Origin: Candidatus Aminicenantota bacterium
GTDB taxonomy: Bacteria; Acidobacteriota; Aminicenantia; S016-38
Direction of reading: 5' to 3'
Length of the DNA stretch: 64,000 bases
Assembly: GCA_027068075.1 (NCBI GenBank)
Contig: JAMOUJ010000002.1
Span: 1 to 64,000 of the forward strand
The notes under the pieces are model-generated. The model was not told the DNA's origin. It saw only the letters and a program-made list of their open reading frames with translations, and did not search any database. Within the stretch, counting starts at the first letter, position 1, and each line of letters opens with the position of its first letter. Made by a program: the position numbers and the translations under genes. This document shows, piece by piece, positions 1-15,889 of this stretch.

Positions 1-159
1 CGGCCCCCCCTTAGTGGGGATGTCCTCAAAGACAACAAGCCTTCCCTCTTTTATCGCCTCCTTGACCGCCGACTTTGACCATTCCTTCCCCTCTCCTCTG
101 CGCCACAACTCCCTCCCCTCCTCATCATAAACCACCATCATCCTCACTTTTTCCAGCAT
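1..159 (-). CDS. sigma-54 activator, third copy, N-terminal part only (runs off left edge)
   Basis: The first 53 codons of a GAF-AAA+ sigma-54-dependent activator are present; the rest lies beyond position 1. The ATG at 159 follows an AGGAGG with about six bases between. The residues match the two complete copies at 5544-6881 and 8527-9864 except for a few changes near the start (MMVVYDEEG where they have LMVVCDEEG). It sits directly downstream of the ABC exporter, as the other two copies sit downstream of exporter remnants. That fits repeated cassettes of exporter plus activator. Its DNA-binding end and target promoter are outside the window. Confidence 0.85.
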   Translation of the reverse strand, partial: MLEKVRMMVVYDEEGRELWRRGEGKEWSKSAVKEAIKEGRLVVFEDIPTKGGP

Positions 160-183
160 CCCTGACCTCCTCAAGAAAATATT

Positions 184-1851
184 TTATACCGCATGCTTTC
201 CTCCGTCAAGGAAAAGAACCTTGAAGGAAGGGCTGTAGCGGAGGAAGGAGAAGGCCTCCCTGTGGGAGATGGCAATTATTATCCGGTCTTTGAATAGGTG
301 CCAGACCCTCTCTTCTATTTCCCTCTGAAGGTCCGGGGGAAGGGAGGAGCCTGCCTCATCAAGGATTATAACATCAGGGCGCTTCAAAACTGCCCTCGCT
401 ATTGCAAGACGCTGGCGCTGACCTGCCGAAAGACTGAGACCCCTCTCACCTACCACCGTGTTCATACCCTCAGGAAGGCTCTCTATAAATTCCATCGCCC
501 CTGAAAGGCGAGCCGCCTCCTCTATCTCTTCCTCACTCACACCCTCCTTCCCAAAGGCTATGTTCCTCTCCACTGTATCATCAAATAAAAAAAGGTCCTG
601 CGAAACATAACCTATCCTCTCACGAAGCCACTTCAAATCCAGATCCTTCAGCGAGACCCCATTGTAAAGTATCTCCCCCTCGGCGGGCCTGTAAAGACCA
701 AGCAGCAACTTTACAAGGGTGCTCTTTCCCGCACCCGAAGGTCCCTTTATAAGAAGAACTTCACCCCTTCTGATTTTAAAATTCAGCCCTTTAAGTAAAG
801 GCCTGCGCCCATCATAACTGAAACTTAAATTCCTCACCTCTATCTCGTCTATCCGAGAAAGCCTCCTTTCCCCTCCCTCCTCAGGCACAACCCGCAAAAG
901 CTCCTTCACCCTCTCCCACGCCGCCCGGGCATGTTGTATCATTATGGAAAAGGATGAAATCCTCTGCGAGGGTCCGTAAAGATAGTATAAATAACCCTGA
1001 AACGCAAATAATGTCCCTATGGTCATGGTTCCCGAAAGTATCTGTTTTATTCCAAAATATAAAAGCAATCCCTCCCCTGCGTAGGAAAGAGCCATTACTA
1101 TTCCCTGATTCTTGTAAACCACAAGGTTCTGATTTATGCTTTTTTCCATGTAGCGCCTCAACGCTTGGCTGCATTTGGCTTTGCACTCCTCCTCCCGGGC
1201 GTTCTCCTTCACCTGGCTTATCCCCATAAACACATCCGAGAGAACCCTCTCCACCTTCGCATTCTCCTCCATAACTTCCTTAGTCGCACCTTTATAACGC
1301 TTCGCCCAATAAAGGGAATTGGCTATAAAAAATGGCACAGGCACAAGGCATACAAGGGTAAGGGACGGATTGAGTTTAAGCAGGATACCTATCCCTATGG
1401 CGAATCTTAAAATATCGGTTGCCGCAAGAACCAAAGAGTGGGAGAAAAGAACCTGAAGGCCCTCTGTATCCCTCCTTATCCTTGAGAGAAGCTCCCCTGT
1501 CTGGGTGGAGGAGAAAAAGCTCAGCGGATAGGAGAGAACCCTTCCCACAAGCTCGCTCTGCATGTCCGTAATTATGATGTGCTGTGCCTTGAAGAAAAGA
1601 AGGTCTTTGAGGTAGGAAATCAGGACAAAGGATAGGGTAAAGGCTGCGAAGGCTGCGATGGCTATGGGAAGAAACTCAGCCTTTCTCTCTCCCACAACTT
1701 TGTCTATGGCGAATTTGGAGATAAGGGGAAGGGGTGAGGAAAGGAGGGTTACAAGAAGGGTAAGAAGGATGGGGAGGGTTAATTTTTTCAGATTAACTTT
1801 AAATAAAAATAAAGGCCCTTTAGTCTTTCCATTCACCTTTGTATGGGTCAT
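184..1851 (-). CDS. ABC exporter, fused membrane and ATPase domains
   Basis: A 555-residue half-transporter of the type that exports peptides or lipids. The membrane domain covers about residues 1-320 and includes the ABC_membrane motif region around SYPLSFFSSTQTGELLSRI. The ATPase covers about 335-555, with Walker A GPSGAGKST, signature LSAGQRQR and Walker B VIILDEA. There is no N-terminal C39 peptidase domain, so any leader cleavage must occur elsewhere. The start overlaps the upstream SPASM-protein fragment by 32 bases, suggesting translational coupling in one operon with the peptide, radical SAM and propeller genes. Its first about 85 and last about 35 codons recur almost unchanged in the remnant at 9894-10232. 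This is the only intact copy here. Substrate is inferred, not shown. Confidence 0.9.
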   Translation of the reverse strand: MTHTKVNGKTKGPLFLFKVNLKKLTLPILLTLLVTLLSSPLPLISKFAIDKVVGERKAEFLPIAIAAFAAFTLSFVLISYLKDLLFFKAQHIIITDMQSELVGRVLSYPLSFFSSTQTGELLSRIRRDTEGLQVLFSHSLVLAATDILRFAIGIGILLKLNPSLTLVCLVPVPFFIANSLYWAKRYKGATKEVMEENAKVERVLSDVFMGISQVKENAREEECKAKCSQALRRYMEKSINQNLVVYKNQGIVMALSYAGEGLLLYFGIKQILSGTMTIGTLFAFQGYLYYLYGPSQRISSFSIMIQHARAAWERVKELLRVVPEEGGERRLSRIDEIEVRNLSFSYDGRRPLLKGLNFKIRRGEVLLIKGPSGAGKSTLVKLLLGLYRPAEGEILYNGVSLKDLDLKWLRERIGYVSQDLFLFDDTVERNIAFGKEGVSEEEIEEAARLSGAMEFIESLPEGMNTVVGERGLSLSAGQRQRLAIARAVLKRPDVIILDEAGSSLPPDLQREIEERVWHLFKDRIIIAISHREAFSFLRYSPSFKVLFLDGGKHAV

Positions 1852-2107
1852 ATTTACAATAAGGAGATGGAGAATATAAATCTCCAGTTTCCCTTAAAGG
1901 AATTTCTCTGCAATCAAAACATATATATCTCAACTCGCAGTCTTTACATTTTTGTATCTTATCTTTATTAATATGCCAATAATATTGCAATTTCCTTTCT
2001 AATTCATTGGGAAATTTATTGTTTCTTAACCTTGCAATTTTTATAGAACTATATATACATGGCTTTACAAAACCGTCTTTTGACAAAGCGATTTTTTTCC
2101 CCAACAA
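1820..2107 (-). CDS. C-terminal part of grasp-with-spasm-like SPASM protein (out of frame with 2065-2607)
   Basis: Carries the Cys-rich end typical of the grasp-with-spasm SPASM peptide maturases: CKDCELRYICFDCR followed by a final YCKYDPYKGEW-like block. It lacks the radical SAM CxxxCxxC. The apparent start is a TTG with no convincing ribosome site, and the N-terminal residues continue the homology of the neighbouring ORF 2065-2607. I therefore read the two as one protein of about 262 residues split by a -1 shift at a G4A7 run (2092-2102 on the plus strand). It overlaps the ABC exporter start. Whether the shift is a decay mutation, a sequencing error or productive slippage cannot be told from sequence. 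Confidence 0.75.
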   Translation of the reverse strand: MLGKKIALSKDGFVKPCIYSSIKIARLRNNKFPNELERKLQYYWHINKDKIQKCKDCELRYICFDCREIPLRETGDLYSPSPYCKYDPYKGEWKD

Positions 2108-2607
2108 GTATTGAAAATCATGTTGAACTTATAAAAATTTAGTTCTACTTTCCCAAATTCACCTTCTATATGATTTATTTGTATACAATTTTTAAAATTC
2201 TTTGTTTTCCTTTCTAACTTTACCCCCAATTTTAAAAGCGAACGGAGTTCTAAAGGACAGGTTTTCCCATAATAAGTTATTTTACTGATCCCGAAGGTTT
2301 CTATAATGCTTTTTACTATAGCTAAATCAACTCCCTCCTCTATCTCTAACTCTATATTTTCAAATTCCTCTTCTTTTGGTTTAATCTCAATATAAGGAAC
2401 CCATCGATTTTCTTCAATACTTATTATAAGTTTTTCTTTTTTTAGAAATTCCAATATTCCTTTTATTCTTTGATATTTTCTTTCATAAAAATGTTCTAAA
2501 TAAGAGTTTTTTATTTGATATACATCTCCTTTCAAAAAGTCAACTATCGCAGTATTTACCGGCCCCCTTTCCAAAAAGACAAACTGATGGAATTTCCAAA
2601 CTTTCAT
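2065..2607 (-). CDS. N-terminal part of grasp-with-spasm-like SPASM protein (frameshifted)
   Basis: A 180-residue ORF whose opening (RGPVNTAIVDFLKGDVYQI) resembles the start of SPASM-domain maturases of grasp-with-spasm systems, where a pVkG..R..I.DL-type segment is usual. The part after about residue 172 (SLCQKTVL) does not fit the family, whereas the -1 frame does (IALSKDGFVKPC, then the CKDCELRYIC block). The ATG lies 4 bases into the end of the preceding propeller lipoprotein gene, so it is translationally coupled. No ATP-grasp ligase, the usual partner, is found in this window. Confidence 0.7.
   Translation of the reverse strand: MKVWKFHQFVFLERGPVNTAIVDFLKGDVYQIKNSYLEHFYERKYQRIKGILEFLKKEKLIISIEENRWVPYIEIKPKEEEFENIELEIEEGVDLAIVKSIIETFGISKITYYGKTCPLELRSLLKLGVKLERKTKNFKNCIQINHIEGEFGKVELNFYKFNMIFNTCWGKKSLCQKTVL
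2092..2102 (-). other. G4A7 run at the frame change in the SPASM gene
   Basis: On the minus strand the sequence reads GGGGAAAAAAA. The upstream frame reads GGA AAA AAA TCG and the downstream frame GGG AAA AAA ATC. A single -1 slip on the A-run joins the two halves into a continuous family-like protein. Runs of this kind permit polymerase or ribosome slippage but are also common sites of indel error. Confidence 0.6.
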
Positions 2608-3785
2608 TTCAGTTTGAATTTTATTATTCTTGTGGTGAATATATCAAGTTCTTCGTCCCAATCCTGGTATATGTAAATGCCTTTGTCAAGATTTAAGAAA
2701 TTCCTATAAGGAAGCTGGCCATGATATGTTCCTGTGGCCTGAAGAAAAACTTTTCCGAAGGGAAGCCAAAGACTCTCTAAATAATTTCCTGTCTCTGCCT
2801 CTATAACATCTATTCGGTATTTTTTCTCCTTAACATTCACGAGTGTAACCAACCCTAATTTTCCCTTTCCAACATCAAAAATGGTGAAAAAGCAAACTGG
2901 TGACGGGTAAGGTTCATAGATAAATTTATAACCATGTTCAAGAAGCCACCGTGTGTAATTGCTTTCTGGAAAAAATTTACTAATTTCTTCTGCTTCTTTT
3001 TTAGAATATTTTTTACACTTCAGATAAGGGAGATGAATTATCACTTCTTTCCTCGTCGCTATTTTGTAATACCTATATTCTTTCTTTTCTCCGTAAAAAT
3101 AATATAGACTTCCCTCTTTTTCAAATCCGAAAGGGGTTACCCAAAGCACGGGTTGGTAAATATTCTTATTTTTTTCCGTATTTTTGTAATAATTATCTTT
3201 TGCCTCAAATTTCACTAATTTCTCCACCAATTTGGGTTTTCTGTTGGGAATTATTTTATATATTTCCCCGCTTATTTTGTTTATCTTTCCAGTGAAGTTA
3301 TTTATCCCAATGAAAAAGTAATAGGAACCATCTTTTTCAAAAAAATCCAAAAAATACCTTCTTAGGGAGTGAAACATAACTGGATACAAAAATTTGAAGT
3401 TTTGGTCATAAACAAGTATTTTTGTAAAAAGGTCAACCAAAAAATATCTTCTCTTTACATATTTCATAAAGAAAAGGGCTGACATTTTATCAGGAAATTC
3501 CTCTCCCCCAGCAGAGACCCTCAGAACCCTTTTGGGCTGCAATTTGGTTAAATCATAAATTATTACTTTATGATATTTTTTTCCACTTAACTCATCTTCA
3601 AAGTAAAGCTCTCCTTTCTCAAAGTTTACCCCTAACAAATACCCCTTCACCTCTCTTTTTTCAATATCTACACACTCTTTTATGGTTAAGCCGACACTTT
3701 CTCCCCTTCTTTTCTCCACATTACGCTCTTCAAGACAGCCTAACAACCAAAATATCAAAAATAAAACAGCAAATTTCCTACTCAT
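2604..3785 (-). CDS. six-bladed beta-propeller-like lipoprotein
   Basis: A 393-residue secreted lipoprotein: the N-terminus MSRKFAVLFLIFWLLGC has a basic start, hydrophobic core and lipobox LLGC. The remainder is a run of short beta-rich segments (KILVYDQNFKFLYPV, GIYIYQDWDEELDIFTTRIIKF) like the other propeller proteins of this locus, although the usual GxGPxE motif is degenerate. The ATG overlaps the radical SAM stop by 8 bases, so it is coupled to the maturase. The C-terminal pattern resembles the propeller end found in the chimera at 13299-13841. Role unknown; a surface binding or sensing protein is a reasonable guess. Confidence 0.75.
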   Translation of the reverse strand: MSRKFAVLFLIFWLLGCLEERNVEKRRGESVGLTIKECVDIEKREVKGYLLGVNFEKGELYFEDELSGKKYHKVIIYDLTKLQPKRVLRVSAGGEEFPDKMSALFFMKYVKRRYFLVDLFTKILVYDQNFKFLYPVMFHSLRRYFLDFFEKDGSYYFFIGINNFTGKINKISGEIYKIIPNRKPKLVEKLVKFEAKDNYYKNTEKNKNIYQPVLWVTPFGFEKEGSLYYFYGEKKEYRYYKIATRKEVIIHLPYLKCKKYSKKEAEEISKFFPESNYTRWLLEHGYKFIYEPYPSPVCFFTIFDVGKGKLGLVTLVNVKEKKYRIDVIEAETGNYLESLWLPFGKVFLQATGTYHGQLPYRNFLNLDKGIYIYQDWDEELDIFTTRIIKFKLK

Positions 3786-5136: not shown

Positions 5137-5277
5137 TCAATACATTGCAGGATAATCTCGCATAAATACATCTGAGTTTGGCCTCCAGCCACATACCCGA
5201 CATGCACTTTTACACATTAACCTATATTCATGTTTTCTCCGATGAGTTTGTTTTTTTACCGACAGCTTCTTCATCAT
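5137..5277 (-). CDS. small Cys-containing peptide (46 aa), candidate maturase substrate
   Basis: Starts with ATGATG after AAGGAGGTGT in a leader block almost identical to that of the 60-residue peptide at 8079-8261, so the start is well supported. The peptide is basic at the N-terminus (MMKKLSVKKQTHRRKHEYR) and carries MCKSACRVCGW followed by RPNSDVFMRDYPAMY. There is no hydrophobic signal, unlike its counterpart. The three Cys are spaced CxxxCxxC. It lies just upstream of the radical SAM/SPASM gene (3778-5061) under a sigma-54 promoter. A precursor role is inferred from context. Another overlapping frame (5063-5203) is also open; see findings. Confidence 0.6.
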   Translation of the reverse strand: MMKKLSVKKQTHRRKHEYRLMCKSACRVCGWRPNSDVFMRDYPAMY

Positions 5278-5300
5278 ACACCTCCTTATAGTTTTTTTCT

Positions 5301-5332
5301 TGCCCCCTCAGGGGTCGGACCTGAAAGGGGCA
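5301..5332 (-). promoter_or_regulatory. strong hairpin at the 5' end of the peptide mRNA
   Basis: On the minus strand the sequence runs TGCCCC..TCAGG, a short loop, then CCcCTGAgGGGGCA, giving a G/C-rich stem. From the -12 GC of the sigma-54 promoter the start of transcription should fall at or next to its first base, so the mRNA would begin with this stem. It is followed by an A-rich stretch and AAGGAGG, so it is not a terminator in this direction. In the plus direction it is followed by T5 and would look like one. Confidence 0.6.
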
Positions 5333-5342
5333 TTTTTATTAT

Positions 5343-5360
5343 AGCAATTTCCATGCCAAA
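5343..5360 (-). promoter_or_regulatory. sigma-54 (-24/-12) promoter of the 46-aa peptide operon
   Basis: The minus strand reads TTTGGCATGGAAATTGCT. GG (-24) and GC (-12) are 12 positions apart, as the sigma-54 consensus TTGGCAY-N5-TTGCW requires. An identical site precedes the second peptide gene. A sigma-54 activator gene ends about 180 bp upstream, with three palindromes between. Confidence 0.88.
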
Positions 5361-5419: not shown

Positions 5420-5437
5420 GTTACGGAGTAGCGTAAT
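5420..5437. promoter_or_regulatory. activator-site palindrome A1
   Basis: GTTACGGAGTAGCGTAAT, an 18-bp dyad (GTTACG-N6-CGTAAY), 60 bp upstream of the sigma-54 promoter. It is one of three alike sites in this gap, the arrangement expected of an enhancer for a bacterial enhancer-binding protein. Confidence 0.82.
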
Positions 5438-5499
5438 TTTTTGTTTAGTCTTTCCTAAAATGTGCACCCTAAATCCAATGCAGAATTGAATTTATCTTA

Positions 5500-5517
5500 G
5501 TTACGACATAGCGTAAC
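5500..5517. promoter_or_regulatory. activator-site palindrome A2
   Basis: GTTACGACATAGCGTAAC, a perfect-arm 18-bp dyad, 80 bp from A1 (start to start) and 21 bp from A3, i.e. two helical turns, which would place dimers on the same DNA face. Confidence 0.85.
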
Positions 5518-5520
5518 AAA

Positions 5521-5538
5521 ATTACGGGCTTCCGTAAC
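5521..5538. promoter_or_regulatory. activator-site palindrome A3
   Basis: ATTACGGGCTTCCGTAAC, an 18-bp dyad with the same ACG/CGT arms, ending 5 bp from the stop codon of the activator gene. A2 and A3 form a close pair. Confidence 0.82.
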
Positions 5539-5543
5539 TTTCC

Positions 5544-6881
5544 TCACGGCTTAAGGCTCTGCTCATGGATGAATCTCATAAATTTGTGGTATTCTTCCGG
5601 GGAAAGGTTGACCATTTCACACAGTTCCTTCCAACACCACCCTGACTTTATAAGACCACGGCGGAGAAATTCTTTAACCTGGGAACGATTCAAGTCCCTG
5701 GCCAAAAATGGTTTCTTTACCACCTCCCAGAAATTCCCTCCCCGCTCTATCTTCGCCCAGAGTTCATCTATCTCATCCTTCTTTTCTTCAGGCTCAGCCC
5801 TGCGGAAAAGGGAAAGTTCCTTCTCCACTTCCTCCGCAGAGACCTCCTCAGGTTCCCTCCTTGCCCCTAACCGCTGAAGAAGCGTCAAAAGTTCACGAAC
5901 ATTCCCAGGAAAGGAATAGGCTTTTATACGGGAAAGAGCCCCCTTGCTGAGCCTCCTTCCACGAAGTAGCCCCCCGTAATACTCCAATAGCGCATCTATG
6001 TCTTCCTTCCTCTTCCTAAGAGGAGGTATCACTATGTGATGCTGGCTCAGGCGGTAAAATAGATCAGGGCGAAGACGCCCTTCACTTATGGCTTTCCCTA
6101 CAGCCCGGTTCGTAGCAGCTATTATCCGAACCTCAACGCCCCTTTCCCTCGTCTCCCCAAGACGCCTGAACCTCCCTGTCTCTACAAAGCGAAGTAGTTT
6201 CCCCTGAAGATCTAAGGGAACCTCGGTTATTTCGTCTAAAAAAAGCGTCCCACCTGCCGCCGCCTCCACAAGTCCTATCTTCTCCTCCTTCGCATCGGTA
6301 AAGGCTCCCCTCCTATGGCCAAATAATTCGCTTTCAAACAGGGAATGGGGAAGAGAAGCACAGTTCACATGGACGAATTTCCCTTTATGCTCTGATACCT
6401 CGTGAATAAGTCTCGCAACGACCCCCTTTCCCGTCCCTGTCTCCCCCTCTATAAACACATGGCCCCCTTGCGCAGCCTCCAATATCTTACGCTTCACCTC
6501 CTCCGCCGCAACGCTTCTTCCTACAAACAACCTCCCAGCCTCCTTCTCCTTCTCCTTCTCCTCCTCCCTTATCACCCACCTGGCCATACCAACTATCTGC
6601 CATATCTCCTCCTGGCTGAAACGGACCTTCTCACCTGAGTCAAAATATACATAAAACCTCTTTCCTCCTTCCTCCACTGGAATAACTACTACCGACTTCA
6701 GAAGAAGCCTCACCGCTGTCTCCGGCCCCCCCTTAGTGGGGATGTCCTCAAAGACAACAAGCCTTCCCTCTTTTATCGCCTCCTTGACCGCCGACTTTGA
6801 CCATTCCTTCCCCTCTCCTCTGCGCCACAACTCCCTCCCCTCCTCATCACAAACAACCATAAGCCTGACTTTTTCCAGCAC
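5544..6881 (-). CDS. GAF-AAA+ sigma-54-dependent activator, copy A
   Basis: A 445-residue enhancer-binding protein. GAF-like sensor about 1-105; AAA+ domain about 120-345 with Walker A GETGTGKG, Walker B GTLFLDE, arginine-finger region RPDLFYRLS and FPGNVREL. The sigma-54 contact loop reads GAFTDA rather than GAFTGA. A C-terminal DNA-binding segment follows, with a helix-turn-helix-like end (WKELCEMVNLSPEEYHKF, then MRFIHEQSLKP). I chose the GTG at 6881 because AGGAGG lies six bases upstream and length then equals copy B; a TTG at 6896 is possible. The activator probably binds palindromes A1-A3 beyond its stop codon and drives the peptide operon. About 850 bp are identical to copy B as far as I can see. 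Confidence 0.92.
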   Translation of the reverse strand: MLEKVRLMVVCDEEGRELWRRGEGKEWSKSAVKEAIKEGRLVVFEDIPTKGGPETAVRLLLKSVVVIPVEEGGKRFYVYFDSGEKVRFSQEEIWQIVGMARWVIREEEKEKEKEAGRLFVGRSVAAEEVKRKILEAAQGGHVFIEGETGTGKGVVARLIHEVSEHKGKFVHVNCASLPHSLFESELFGHRRGAFTDAKEEKIGLVEAAAGGTLFLDEITEVPLDLQGKLLRFVETGRFRRLGETRERGVEVRIIAATNRAVGKAISEGRLRPDLFYRLSQHHIVIPPLRKRKEDIDALLEYYGGLLRGRRLSKGALSRIKAYSFPGNVRELLTLLQRLGARREPEEVSAEEVEKELSLFRRAEPEEKKDEIDELWAKIERGGNFWEVVKKPFLARDLNRSQVKEFLRRGLIKSGWCWKELCEMVNLSPEEYHKFMRFIHEQSLKP

Positions 6882-6905
6882 TCCTGACCTCCTCAAGAAA
6901 ATATT

Positions 6906-7133
6906 TTACGGCAATTGCCCTTGCCGGTCAAGGGAAAGAACTTTGAAGGAAGGGCTGTAGCGGAGGAAGGAGAAGGCCTCCCTGTGGGAGATGGCGATGC
7001 TATCCTTGAAACAAAAGATAAAAATAATAGAACGACCATTTCCGGGTCTAAAGCCATAGGAAGTATTTTCCGAGGAGCAAGAATAAAATAAAAACCAAAG
7101 AACTAAAAACAAAATTTTCCTTTTACCAGCCAT
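6906..7133 (-). pseudogene. lipoprotein start fused to the last codons of an ABC exporter
   Basis: A 75-residue ORF. The first about 44 residues are a lipoprotein signal (lipobox-like FYSC) and a short unknown stretch. The last about 30 (IAISHREAFSFLRYSPSFKVL) copy the very end of the ABC exporter at 184-1851. Everything between is missing, so this is a deletion product. The ATG overlaps the end of the preceding propeller gene by 31 bases. The tail, not the front, is homologous to the exporter, so an exporter gene once stood between the propeller gene and the activator here, as at the left end. Probably non-functional. Confidence 0.65.
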
Positions 7134-8089
7134 AATTTTTCCCCATCGTCTAACATACCTACGAAGTTTTTGCCCCTTAAGTTAAGCATCTCAATCTTAC
7201 TTCTTCCCGAAAAATATCTTATCCTGGAATGGTTTGGGTTGAAATATTCATAAAAGTAAACTTTTTCATAACCTAATCGGTAAATTACCAAAATCCAATT
7301 TCCACTTCCCAACAATTTATACACATTAGTCCACTTGCTCATCCACTTTCTATGGGCTTCGTCATCAAATTTTTCTACACGATACTTGGAAGGCATGGGT
7401 TTGTAAAAAGGAGGATTAAACTTCACTTTTCTTTCAAATGAACATTCCTTAGAAAAAATTGAAATCTCATTAAGAATGCTCTGATTTGCCACAATGTTTC
7501 CATTTAAAACCAAAATATTTCCTTCATTTACATTAAACTTTTTCATTAAAGGTATAAAATATCTTTTTCCACAAGCCTTAACAATTTCGGCCTTCTCTAA
7601 ATCTAAGATCTTTACCAAATTATCCTTCCAGTAGGGATTTATAATCACCAACCAGTTTCTATTTATTTGGAAATCATCAAAATAAAAAGGGGATCCCAAA
7701 GAAACTCTTTCCAATTCATTGTTTTCTGAATTAAGTTTATAGATATAACTTAAAGGATAGTAGGAATTTATCCAGCACGCTTTCCCCGTGCAATGGATTT
7801 TGTTTGGGGCATATACTTCTTCAGGCCCTACTCCTTCATTTATGATTTTTTCTAATCTTTCTCCTAATGTCACTTTCCAGATTCCATTTCTAACAAAGAA
7901 AATAGTATTTTCGCTAATGCTCGCCCAATTGTAATAAAAATCTCCTTTTCCTATCATCAATTTTTGAATAATTTTAATAGACATCTTTTTATAGACTATC
8001 TTTTCTTTCCTACATGAAATTGCCACTGTTCCTATTAATAGGAAAAAAAGGAGGGAGGAAAACCTCCCTCCTAAATTTTTATTTGACAA
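7103..8089 (-). CDS. beta-propeller-like lipoprotein following the 60-aa peptide
   Basis: A predicted secreted lipoprotein of about 328 residues. I place the start at the TTG at 8089, preceded by GGGGAGG six bases upstream; this gives an N-terminus SNKNLGGRFSSLLFFLLIGTVAISC with a basic start, hydrophobic core and lipobox AISC. Starts further upstream would run through the peptide gene in another frame. The body has the GxGPEE motif (NEGVGPEEVYAPNKI) and repeated beta-strand segments of the propeller family. It overlaps the last 11 bases of the 60-residue peptide gene. A terminator-like hairpin lies inside its signal-peptide codons (8043-8071), so its expression may be much lower than that of the peptide. 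Confidence 0.75.
   Translation of the reverse strand: MSNKNLGGRFSSLLFFLLIGTVAISCRKEKIVYKKMSIKIIQKLMIGKGDFYYNWASISENTIFFVRNGIWKVTLGERLEKIINEGVGPEEVYAPNKIHCTGKACWINSYYPLSYIYKLNSENNELERVSLGSPFYFDDFQINRNWLVIINPYWKDNLVKILDLEKAEIVKACGKRYFIPLMKKFNVNEGNILVLNGNIVANQSILNEISIFSKECSFERKVKFNPPFYKPMPSKYRVEKFDDEAHRKWMSKWTNVYKLLGSGNWILVIYRLGYEKVYFYEYFNPNHSRIRYFSGRSKIEMLNLRGKNFVGMLDDGEKLWLVKGKFCF
8043..8071 (-). terminator. intrinsic terminator or attenuator between peptide and propeller
   Basis: On the minus strand GGAGGGAGG-TTTT-CCTCCCTCC is followed by T7, a textbook intrinsic terminator starting just past the stop of the 60-residue peptide gene. The same bases are codons of the following lipoprotein's signal peptide (GGRFSSLLFF). 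Partial read-through would give abundant peptide mRNA and less propeller mRNA. Confidence 0.8.
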
Positions 8090-8261
8090 GATCGCCTCCC
8101 CACTTACAATCATCCCCTGGCGAAACACATCCTTTGTGACTCCCATCTTTGCCATATACCCAATGTCCTCTTCCACTGTCACCAAGTGCTCGCCATCCTA
8201 AAAAACCTAAAGTCAAAAGTAACAAGAGTAAACTTAGAATCTGTTTAAGTTTATTCATCAT
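8079..8261 (-). CDS. 60-aa secreted or membrane-anchored small peptide
   Basis: Starts with ATGATG after AAGGAGGTGT in the same leader as the 46-residue peptide. Residues 1-24 form a signal-like segment (MMNKLKQILSLLLLLLTLGFLGW). The rest is Gly/Asp-rich with two Cys: HKGCVSPGDDCKWGG. Short leader, small-residue region and Cys near the C-terminus recall Bacteroidota NVEALA-type small secreted peptides, which are also found beside six-bladed propeller genes; this is a resemblance, not a family assignment. The sigma-54 promoter (8327-8344) and activator copy B upstream suggest strong, switched expression. Confidence 0.7.
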   Translation of the reverse strand: MMNKLKQILSLLLLLLTLGFLGWRALGDSGRGHWVYGKDGSHKGCVSPGDDCKWGGDLVK

Positions 8262-8285: not shown

Positions 8286-8315
8286 ACCCCCTCAGGGGTC
8301 GGACCTGAAAGGGGC
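8286..8315 (-). promoter_or_regulatory. 5' leader hairpin of the 60-aa peptide mRNA
   Basis: Same stem as at 5301-5332. The single base difference lies at the edge of the stem (G to A on the plus strand), so pairing of the inner CCCC/GGGG arms is kept. It should sit at the transcription start. Confidence 0.55.
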
Positions 8316-8326
8316 ATTTTTATTAT

Positions 8327-8526: not shown

Positions 8527-9864
8527 TCAGGGCTTAAGTTTGTAGTCGTGAAGGAAGGTCATAAATTTATGATATTCTTCAGGGGAAAGGTTGACCATTT
8601 CACACAGTTCCTTCCAACACCACCCTGACTTGAGAAGACCACGGCGGAGAAACTCTTTAACCTGGGAGCGATTCAGGTCCCTGGACAAAAATGGCTTCTT
8701 TACCACCTCCCAGAAATTCCCTCCCCGCTCTATCTTCGCCCAAAGAACCTCTATCTCATCCTTCCTCTCTTCAGGCTCAGCCCTGCGGAAAAGGGAAAGT
8801 TCCTTCTCCACTTCCTCCGCAGAGACCTCCTCAGGTTCCCTCCTCGCCCCTAACCGCTGAAGAAGCGTCAAAAGTTCACGAACATTCCCCGGAAAGGAAT
8901 AGGCTTTTATACGGGAAAGAGCCCCCTTGCTGAGCCTCCTTCCACGAAGTAGTCCCCCGTAATATTCTAAAAGCGCATCTATGTCCTCCCGTCTTTCTCT
9001 CAGTGGAGGTATCACTATGTGATGCTGGCTCAGGCGGTAAAATAGATCAGGGCGAAGACGCCCTTCACTTATGGCTTTCCCTACAGCCCGGTTCGTAGCA
9101 GCTATTATCCGAACCTCAACGCCCCTTTCCCTCGTCTCCCCAAGACGCCTGAACCTCCCTGTCTCTACAAAGCGAAGTAGTTTCCCCTGAAGATCTAAGG
9201 GAACCTCGGTTATTTCGTCTAAAAAAAGCGTCCCACCTGCCGCCGCCTCCACAAGTCCTATCTTCTCCTCCTTCGCATCGGTAAAGGCTCCCCTCCTATG
9301 GCCAAATAATTCGCTTTCAAACAGGGAATGGGGAAGAGAAGCACAGTTCACATGGACGAATTTCCCTTTATGCTCTGATACCTCGTGAATAAGTCTCGCA
9401 ACGACCCCCTTTCCCGTCCCTGTCTCCCCCTCTATAAACACATGGCCCCCTTGCGCAGCCTCCAATATCTTACGCTTCACCTCCTCCGCCGCAACGCTTC
9501 TTCCTACAAACAACCTCCCAGCCTCCTTCTCCTTCTCCTTCTCCTCCTCCCTTATCACCCACCTGGCCATACCAACTATCTGCCATATCTCCTCCTGGCT
9601 GAAACGGACCTTCTCACCTGAGTCAAAATATACATAAAACCTCTTTCCTCCTTCCTCCACTGGAATAACTACTACCGACTTCAGAAGAAGCCTCACCGCT
9701 GTCTCCGGCCCCCCCTTAGTGGGGATGTCCTCAAAGACAACAAGCCTTCCCTCTTTTATCGCCTCCTTGACCGCCGACTTTGACCATTCCTTCCCCTCTC
9801 CTCTGCGCCACAACTCCCTCCCCTCCTCATCACAAACAACCATAAGCCTGACTTTCTCCACCAT
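8527..9864 (-). CDS. GAF-AAA+ sigma-54-dependent activator, copy B
   Basis: A 445-residue paralogue of copy A with the same GAF, AAA+ (GETGTGKG, GTLFLDE, GAFTDA) and C-terminal layout. The ATG at 9864 gives the same length. As far as I can see, the first about 285 residues are identical to copy A after the second residue. Differences cluster towards the C-terminus, with five in the last eleven residues (MTFLHDYKLKP against MRFIHEQSLKP), the likely recognition-helix region. The adjoining palindromes differ correspondingly (GTTAG arms rather than GTTACG). It likely controls the 60-residue peptide promoter. Upstream neighbours are an exporter remnant and an ABC-2 pair. Confidence 0.92.
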   Translation of the reverse strand: MVEKVRLMVVCDEEGRELWRRGEGKEWSKSAVKEAIKEGRLVVFEDIPTKGGPETAVRLLLKSVVVIPVEEGGKRFYVYFDSGEKVRFSQEEIWQIVGMARWVIREEEKEKEKEAGRLFVGRSVAAEEVKRKILEAAQGGHVFIEGETGTGKGVVARLIHEVSEHKGKFVHVNCASLPHSLFESELFGHRRGAFTDAKEEKIGLVEAAAGGTLFLDEITEVPLDLQGKLLRFVETGRFRRLGETRERGVEVRIIAATNRAVGKAISEGRLRPDLFYRLSQHHIVIPPLRERREDIDALLEYYGGLLRGRRLSKGALSRIKAYSFPGNVRELLTLLQRLGARREPEEVSAEEVEKELSLFRRAEPEERKDEIEVLWAKIERGGNFWEVVKKPFLSRDLNRSQVKEFLRRGLLKSGWCWKELCEMVNLSPEEYHKFMTFLHDYKLKP

Positions 9865-9893: not shown

Positions 9894-10232
9894 TTACGGC
9901 AATCGCCTCCCCCCGTCAAGGGAAAGAAGTTTGAAGGAATGGGTGCGACCAAGGAAGGAGAACGCCTCCCTGTGGGAAATGGCGATGATTATGCGGTCTT
10001 TGAAGAAGAAAAGCCTTCTTAATGTAGAAAAGAGGAGAACAAAGGATAGGGTAAAGGCTGCGAAGGCTGCGATGGCTATGGGAAGAAACTCAGCCTTTCT
10101 CTCCCCCACAACCTTGTCTATGGCGAATTTGGAGATAAGGGGAAGGGGTGAGGAAAGGAGGACGATTACAAAAGTCAGAATCGAAGGAAAAATCAAAACT
10201 CTTAGTCTTTTCAAGAAAATTTTTTTAAACAT
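9894..10232 (-). pseudogene. ABC exporter with a large in-frame internal deletion
   Basis: A 112-residue ORF made of the exporter's N-terminal membrane segment (SSPLPLISKFAIDKVVGE onward) joined after FFKDRIIIAISH to its final residues. The nucleotide match to 184-1851 is nearly perfect over 10042-10165. The join falls where the intact gene has TTCTTCAAGG (about 1590) and ATTCAAAGAC (about 290), so deletion across a short TTCAA repeat removed some 430 codons including all ATPase motifs. The reading frame survived. The ATG overlaps the preceding permease stop by 8 bases. It cannot work as a transporter. Confidence 0.75.
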
Positions 10233-14878: not shown

Positions 14879-15889
14879 TTATTGAATTAATAAAAAAAAC
14901 CAAAGGGTTTTGATATAGATACACCCAGCCTTATTTATTTGGTTATATGAATTTATTCCATCGATAACACACCCACCTCTGCAAAATCCTACTATGGGAC
15001 ATTTAAGGCAATTTTTAATTATAGTCTCCATTCTTTGTTTCATAAAACTTATCTGACGCTTAAGTAGAAAGCTATCAAAAATGTTTTTTATATTATCCCC
15101 TGAGATATAAGCGCCTGGAACATATTGACAAATATAAGAAAACATATCTCTTGAGATGTTATAATAGAGAATTGATTGTCCTATATTGGCACCTAACCCG
15201 TTGCAAAAAGGGGCATATTTTAAAAAAGAACCTTTTAGAACATTATTAAATAAGTCAAAGATATTATCAGTTATTAAAAAATTCTTCTTAGAGCTATAAT
15301 CCACTAACTCAAAAAATTTAAAAGCTATTTTTTCCCCTTCGCTTTCTTCTTTTCCCAGCAGATTTGGCGAAATTCTTGCGGAAGAAAATCCTATTTTTTG
15401 AAAAAAACCTATTTTTTCTTTATCAATCAATTCAAATTTTTCTATGGTTCCTTGAAAAGAAGTTCCTAACAAATTATTTTTTCTCAAAAGTTCTACTTTT
15501 CCTAAAATATCTTCAAAACTTTTTTTCCCGTTTTTATATCTCCTGGTAAAATTATGGTGTCTTTCATTCAAATCTATGCTTATATTTATAATTACACCGT
15601 TCTTCTTGAAGAATTTTACTAGTTCAGGCGTAAGTAGTGTAGCATTTGAATTAATTGAGATCTTTGCTTTTTGGGTGTAATCGCATACATAAAGTTCGCT
15701 AAATTCCTCTGACCATCCGCAGATGTGTTGGGGATATGAAGTTTCAAACTTCAGTGAAAAATTCAAAAAGTTCGCAGGTTCCTTTATGGAGACCTTAATT
15801 GATTCCTTGACATTTTGTTTCTCCCTTTTGTGATTACATGAGATAGTGAGAGGCAGGAAAAGAAGCAATATAAAGCCAACTCTTCTCAT
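14879..15889 (-). pseudogene. chimera: propeller lipoprotein start joined to a radical SAM/SPASM end
   Basis: The first about 80 residues are a lipoprotein signal (lipobox-like TISC) and the YPQHICGWSEEF...CDYTQKAK segment also found in the propeller at 23018-24232; the DNA match covers about 15,675-15,770. It then switches to radical SAM sequence: SINSNATLL, SIDLNERHHNF, and a SPASM end CLKCPIVGFCRGGC. The CxxxCxxC cluster motif and the N-terminal half of the SAM barrel are absent, so no SAM chemistry is possible. It has its own good ribosome site (AAGGAGGGAA). I read it as the product of a deletion that fused two neighbours in frame. Confidence 0.7.

Follow-up and report, generated by a model that had tools for sequence, protein, structure and literature searches.

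Identification of the peptide gene

A short Cys-containing open reading frame lies upstream of a radical SAM (rSAM)/SPASM enzyme gene in Candidatus Aminicenantota bacterium (GenBank assembly GCA_027068075.1), and the question that this locus raises is whether the frame encodes a substrate of the enzyme and, if so, what kind of product would be made from it. We analyzed the frame in its surroundings, namely, the first 64,000 nucleotides of contig JAMOUJ010000002.1 (hereafter the window). The coordinates given by the initial annotation are correct; the frame is read from the minus strand, where it runs for 46 codons from an ATG at 5277 to 5137. Its product is MMKKLSVKKQTHRRKHEYRLMCKSACRVCGWRPNSDVFMRDYPAMY, and the frame is separated from the downstream rSAM gene by 75 bp. 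The initial annotation had also described a strong ribosome site, and this was found immediately 5′ of the ATG (TAAGGAGGTGT); AAGGAGGTGT is located ahead of the start codon. The features of the locus are listed in Table 1.

Table 1 Features of the Cys-peptide cassette (cassette A) and its surroundings in the window
Feature	Position	Strand	Remark
ABC exporter (ABC_membrane and ABC_tran)	184..1851	-	Domain matches
RRE-SPASM partner (RRE predicted)	1820..2607	-	C-terminus matches TIGR04193; split into 2607-2065 and 2107-1820
Predicted beta-propeller protein	2604..3785	-	Lipoprotein-type N-terminus MSRKFAVLFLIFWLLGC; predicted model and Foldseek
rSAM/SPASM maturase, 427 amino acids	3778..5061	-	Nearest NCBIfam model TIGR04068 (CcpM)
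Probable precursor peptide, 46 amino acids	5137..5277	-	Leader MMKKLSVKK..., core CKSACRVC; distance between first Cys and C-terminus, 25 residues
Ribosome-binding site	5284..5292 (approximate)	-	AAGGAGGTG region
5′ UTR hairpin, T-loop-like apex	5302..5335	-	Conserved ahead of Cys-peptide genes in three genomes
Sigma-54 promoter (-24/-12)	5343..5359	-	TTGGCATGGAAATTGCT
Three TTACG-N6-CGTAA palindromes, putative enhancer sites	5421-5436, 5501-5516, 5522-5537	.	0.02 expected in window
Sigma-54 enhancer-binding protein (Sigma54_activat), 450 amino acids	5544..6896	-	96% identical copy at 8527-9864
Paralogous cassette B, Sec-type 60-amino acid Cys peptide	8079..8261	-	Same 100-bp promoter/leader block, 97% identical

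Using a profile built from 23 relatives with the window peptide excluded, we found that the peptide ranked first among 513 local small frames, with 12.4 bits against 4.8 bits for the runner-up. This score was matched by 2 of 10,000 shuffled sequences, or by 23 of 10,000 when the Cys positions were kept fixed, and with an earlier profile, built from 16 relatives, the peptide reached 11.5 bits, which 3 of 2000 shuffles also attained. Judged by these sequence scores, the peptide has a modest similarity to the family that clearly exceeds chance, and the position of the gene adds to it. When the peptide alone was used for homology searches, only the peptide itself was found in its own genome, and only chance matches were found at the order level (E 0.2-0.4, at loci L002 and L003); the host lineage has a single known copy of the gene, with no close relative. 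Short open frames are common, and a second 46-amino acid frame (5203-5063), which overlaps the first and stops a single base short of the rSAM start, is likewise open. This overlapping frame was rejected as a gene because it has neither a ribosome site nor a counterpart in relatives, whereas the frame at 5277-5137 has a ribosome site, a promoter, the expected position, and family similarity. The latter is very probably a gene, and we consider it extremely improbable that it is open by chance or that the overlapping frame is the real gene.

Conservation of the peptide family in Aminicenantia

Cys peptides of one family precede rSAM homologues at loci L101, L134-L136, L138-L148, L150, and L152, and the short frames ahead of the rSAM relatives carry strong ribosome sites. 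About 40 copies are spread over 10 of 142 genomes of the class Aminicenantia; one genome (G471) accounts for 25 matches, some of them in tandem (L145). The family alignment shows a leader starting with M[LIM]KK[LMIV][ST], often an ERxA element, a C-x3-C-x3-C core, and then a tail, and the distance from the first Cys to the end is 25-32 residues in 22 of the 23 motif-bearing members, the window peptide having 25. For example, the leader at L135 begins with MLKKLTTKK, compared with MMKKLSVKK in the window; the peptide at L137 is MIRTLKRLTDNN...CAEKCDWFC, and this locus and the window have the rSAM-propeller gene order in common. The peptide at L101 is a CX2CC variant, and its gene is accompanied by genes for an rSAM enzyme, a propeller, a partner, one additional protein, and an ABC protein, in this order. 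The window peptide deviates from the family in having CX3CX2C spacing and in lacking the ERxA element ahead of the core. The very basic front and the radical-SAM-like Cys spacing noted by the initial annotation are both present in this peptide, but they are features of this member; the family shares the leader start given above and has CX3CX3C as its norm.

The dN/dS ratios of the leaders, calculated between relatives with the window gene outside the comparison, were about 0.05-0.34 in seven pairs, and an eighth pair gave zero on too few changes; the cores vary. Frameshifted homologues or an absence of purifying selection had been named at the outset as grounds for discarding the frame, and neither the leader ratios, all below 1, nor the Cys pattern, which is conserved in homologous cassettes, gave such grounds. 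The proposal of the initial annotation that the peptide is a precursor for the adjacent maturase is well supported by conserved synteny, leader, and Cys core and by dN/dS values below 1 in homologous cassettes. As is general for rSAM-modified RiPPs, a short precursor gene adjoins an rSAM/SPASM enzyme gene across genomes, and in the relatives the leader is under purifying selection and the core is divergent. The layout is also that of the sactipeptide type, with donor Cys residues clustered N-terminally in the core and acceptors possible C-terminally. We also looked for thuricin-like acceptor positions, but the tails show no conserved acceptor column.

The initial annotation had offered a small metal-binding, zinc-knuckle-like peptide as its other reading, which would make the product a zinc knuckle or Fe-S ligand serving the rSAM enzyme or regulating the operon. 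The CX3CX2C spacing is indeed that of radical SAM cluster motifs, and the very basic N-terminus suggests contact with nucleic acid or membrane. However, this spacing is particular to the window member, and the CX3CX3C norm, conserved leaders, divergent cores, and tandem copies (L145) of the family are characteristic of substrates rather than of proteins that carry a cofactor. In addition, the peptides matched no model in Pfam or NCBIfam, metal-binding models included, at E values up to 1 and 5. We consider a metal-binding role very unlikely. The frame is very probably a real precursor gene, whose family is unmatched in Pfam and NCBIfam and would fall within the known rSAM/SPASM-modified Cys RiPPs.

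The rSAM/SPASM enzyme

The rSAM motif CX3CX2C of the enzyme consists of Cys 64, 68, and 71 and is joined by seven SPASM Cys residues, and these 3 + 7 Cys are invariant in 12 homologues. Several genomes of the class contain homologues with 35-41% identity over nearly the full length. The enzyme scored 238.6 bits against TIGR04068 (CcpM), below the cut-off of 500, and the tested relatives scored 234-241 bits; the next matches, likewise all below cut-off, were TIGR04148 (radical SAM peptide maturase family), RumMC, and the ranthipeptide model PapB (NF047865; 151.5 bits, cut-off 340). The nearest families are all peptide maturases, and the closest solved structure was 5wgg (E 6e-20), the entry title of which refers to thioether formation in sactipeptides. 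The precursor could also undergo a different chemistry, giving a C-C or ether cyclophane or an epimerized residue, with the three Cys residues disulfide-bonded or free. The cyclophane and epimerase families YhhB, FxsB, and GrrM also score, though lower than CcpM, RumMC, and PapB, and aromatic residues are frequent in the family tails; against this, Cys is the most conserved feature of the core, and the best-matching families and the solved structure are thioether makers. We therefore regard a non-thioether product as unlikely. The rSAM core is preceded by about 50 residues, a stretch too short to accommodate the usual recognition domain, so that the enzyme has no room for an RRE of its own; distant homologues are 490-530 residues long.

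Partner, propeller, and exporter

The C-terminus of the partner matched TIGR04193 (grasp-with-SPASM maturase) and SPASM, with 67.4 bits in the window and 86-90 bits in fused relatives, below the cut-off of 175, and the partner proteins examined have no CX3CX2C motif. The partner is fused C-terminally to the rSAM enzyme at L138, L140, L142, L144, L146, and L148, and in most other cassettes its gene directly follows the rSAM or the propeller gene. In an AlphaFold model of the partner homologue at L145 (mean pLDDT 72.6), the N-terminus resembles the RRE-leader complex of TbiB1 (5v1v; probability 0.99, TM 0.56 of target), and the whole chain gave a weak match to RRE-rSAM-SPASM enzymes (Foldseek E about 1e-3, TM 0.35). 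This predicted fold fits the idea that the partner would supply the recognition domain absent from the rSAM enzyme. The partner frame in the window is broken by one base in an A7 run (GGGGAAAAAAATCG) near 2090, downstream of the RRE half, and is intact in relatives. The break may be a real mutation, but in such a run slippage, or an error made in sequencing or assembly, is also plausible.

The predicted model of the propeller protein (pLDDT 84.5, pTM 0.82) matched beta-propellers in Foldseek with a probability of 1.00, and a homologue adjoins the rSAM gene at L137, L143, and L151. A C39 peptidase domain was not found in the ABC exporter, nor was a dedicated leader peptidase found in cassette A. 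Genes for HxxEH (M16 peptidase-like) proteins follow the partner gene at L134 (2790-4773), L136 (25-1834), and L145 (6402-7286) and are absent from cassette A; they are possible candidates for the leader peptidases of these relatives.

Sigma-54 promoter, palindromes, and 5′ UTR

The initial annotation had proposed a sigma-54 promoter, and such an element (TTGGCATG-GAAA-TTGCT) begins 82 bp upstream of the ATG, with none of 300 shuffles scoring as well. Across the 1.9-Mb genome, the pattern was found at three sites, each ahead of a Cys-peptide cassette, and its reversed control does not occur at all in the same 1.9 Mb; the genome also contains a sigma-54 gene (PF04552, 188 bits). The three palindromes are perfect and lie between the enhancer-binding-protein gene and the promoter. 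They recur behind a homologous regulator in another genus (L210) with the same spacing of 80 + 21 bp; a search for them at cassette B found none. Sigma-54 promoters are present before the more distant cassettes L102, L103, L106, and L108. Because no convincing one was found before the cassettes of the closest relatives (L134-L152), sigma-54 control is a property of the host regulon, not of the precursor family.

A hairpin with the apex GGU[U/C]C[G/A]A is located right upstream of the ribosome site, and we observed 10 copies in three genomes: in the window (5302-5335 and 8287-8318, minus strand), L166 (11016-11050 and 11786-11815, minus strand), L209 (about 2045-2075, plus strand), L210 (about 10105-10135, minus strand), and L208 (near 14462, 11571, 10809, and 8882, minus strand). 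Some copies show compensatory pair changes, and some lie within operons without a promoter. An Rfam scan of the first 12 kb of the window gave nothing beyond a CsrC fragment attributable to chance (E 0.37), and the hairpin had no match.

Related cassettes and probable origin of the module

The 100 bp between promoter and start codon that cassettes A and B share recur at 94% on contig C4, where a longer secreted Cys protein follows them, and a partial copy precedes another Sec-type peptide. Contig C2 opens inside an enhancer-binding-protein gene (window 1-300), and on C4 a gene of this type lies immediately before the contig end (L166 end, C4:50019); the three cassettes are therefore probably in tandem, and the two contigs probably join across this repeat. 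Short Sec-type Cys peptides followed by beta-propeller genes were also seen at L166 (10565-11838, minus strand), L208, and L210 (9854-10078, minus strand), as in the window (8079-8261, minus strand). This Sec-type Cys-peptide family is under the same sigma-54 regulator and is NVEALA-like by appearance alone.

In the sister genome G001, Sec-type cassettes follow a regulator of 65% identity, and no close relative of the rSAM enzyme or the precursor was found. The G+C content is 29-33% in the rSAM-propeller-partner module, compared with 51% in the regulator and 54% in the rest of the window. Together with the absence from the sister species, this low G+C content suggests that the RiPP module joined a regulon that had previously served Sec-type Cys peptides, probably by insertion downstream of a promoter already in place; the direction and the source of this move are inferred.

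Three chimeric remnants lie nearby and are traces of recombination among repeated cassettes: 6906-7133 joins a propeller lipoprotein start to an ABC end, 9894-10232 an ABC start to an ABC end, and 14879-15889 a lipoprotein start to the second half of a protein of the rSAM/SPASM type. These remnants and the one-base break in the partner raise the possibility that cassette A is itself decaying, so that the peptide is a former precursor from which nothing is made today. By contrast, the peptide, ribosome site, promoter, palindromes, rSAM, propeller, and ABC genes are all open and motif-intact, and the break falls in a run of seven A residues with the RRE half upstream of it. We consider such decay rather unlikely.

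Discussion

We consider it quite probable, on the sequence evidence assembled here, that the frame encodes the precursor of an rSAM-modified RiPP of the CcpM/sactipeptide/ranthipeptide-like kind that is made as follows. The enhancer-binding protein (5544-6896) would bind the palindromes (5421-5537) and switch on the sigma-54 promoter, and the RRE-like N-terminal domain of the partner would grip the leader of the peptide. The rSAM/SPASM enzyme would then form thioether bonds between the three core Cys residues and residues in the C-terminal tail, so that the product would be a nested hairpin like those of sactipeptides or ranthipeptides. The ABC protein would export the modified peptide, and the lipoprotein-like propeller may act on it or receive it at the cell surface.

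The closest known systems resemble this cassette in part. CcpM is the best family for the window enzyme and all tested relatives, and in both systems a short Cys peptide adjoins the enzyme; however, the window enzyme reaches less than half of the cut-off, the peptide matches no model, and sigma-54 control and the RRE-SPASM partner are additional. The ranthipeptide maturase PapB and the enzyme of 5wgg/5why, which we take to be CteB, are rSAM/SPASM proteins with significant similarity to the window enzyme and perform thioether chemistry on Cys peptides, but they have their own N-terminal RRE, whereas in the window the predicted RRE sits on the partner. The grasp-with-SPASM maturase resembles the partner in its C-terminal SPASM part, although no ATP-grasp match was seen among the scanned genes of cassette A, and a complete rSAM enzyme is either fused to the partner or encoded beside it. 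The thuricin CD core has the CX3CX3C spacing of the family, and the stretch from its first Cys onward measures about 26 residues. As proposed for the window, two SPASM-type proteins (TrnC and TrnD) cooperate on peptides (TrnA and TrnB) with N-terminal Cys residues in the core. The two thuricin CD enzymes form a tight complex in which TrnC is the key catalyst and TrnD, in an AlphaFold model, mainly contacts the leader; in the product, three thioethers are nested (C13-S21), and their Cys residues lie N-terminally (PMC12093266). Unlike the window partner, which lacks CX3CX2C and carries a predicted RRE, TrnD is an rSAM enzyme, and thuricin CD comes from other bacteria; the parallel is one of working and not of membership.

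As a tentative idea, which we hold with less confidence than the precursor assignment, the sigma-54 regulator, palindromes, and structured leader RNA may form a "peptide slot" that drives exchangeable Cys-peptide modules. These modules would be either Sec-type peptides or, in cassette A, an rSAM RiPP with leader recognition moved to a catalytically inactive RRE-SPASM subunit, and surface propellers would read the products.

A literature search (Aminicenantes with RiPP; grasp-with-spasm; NVEALA) found no described RiPP for the class. The precursor family described here, for which the libraries searched contain no model, comes together with its enzyme pair from the little-studied Aminicenantia. 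The pair, an rSAM enzyme without an RRE and an RRE-SPASM partner, occurs in split and fused versions, through which leader recognition in trans can be tested, and the sigma-54 elements of the locus allow the timing of peptide production to be predicted.
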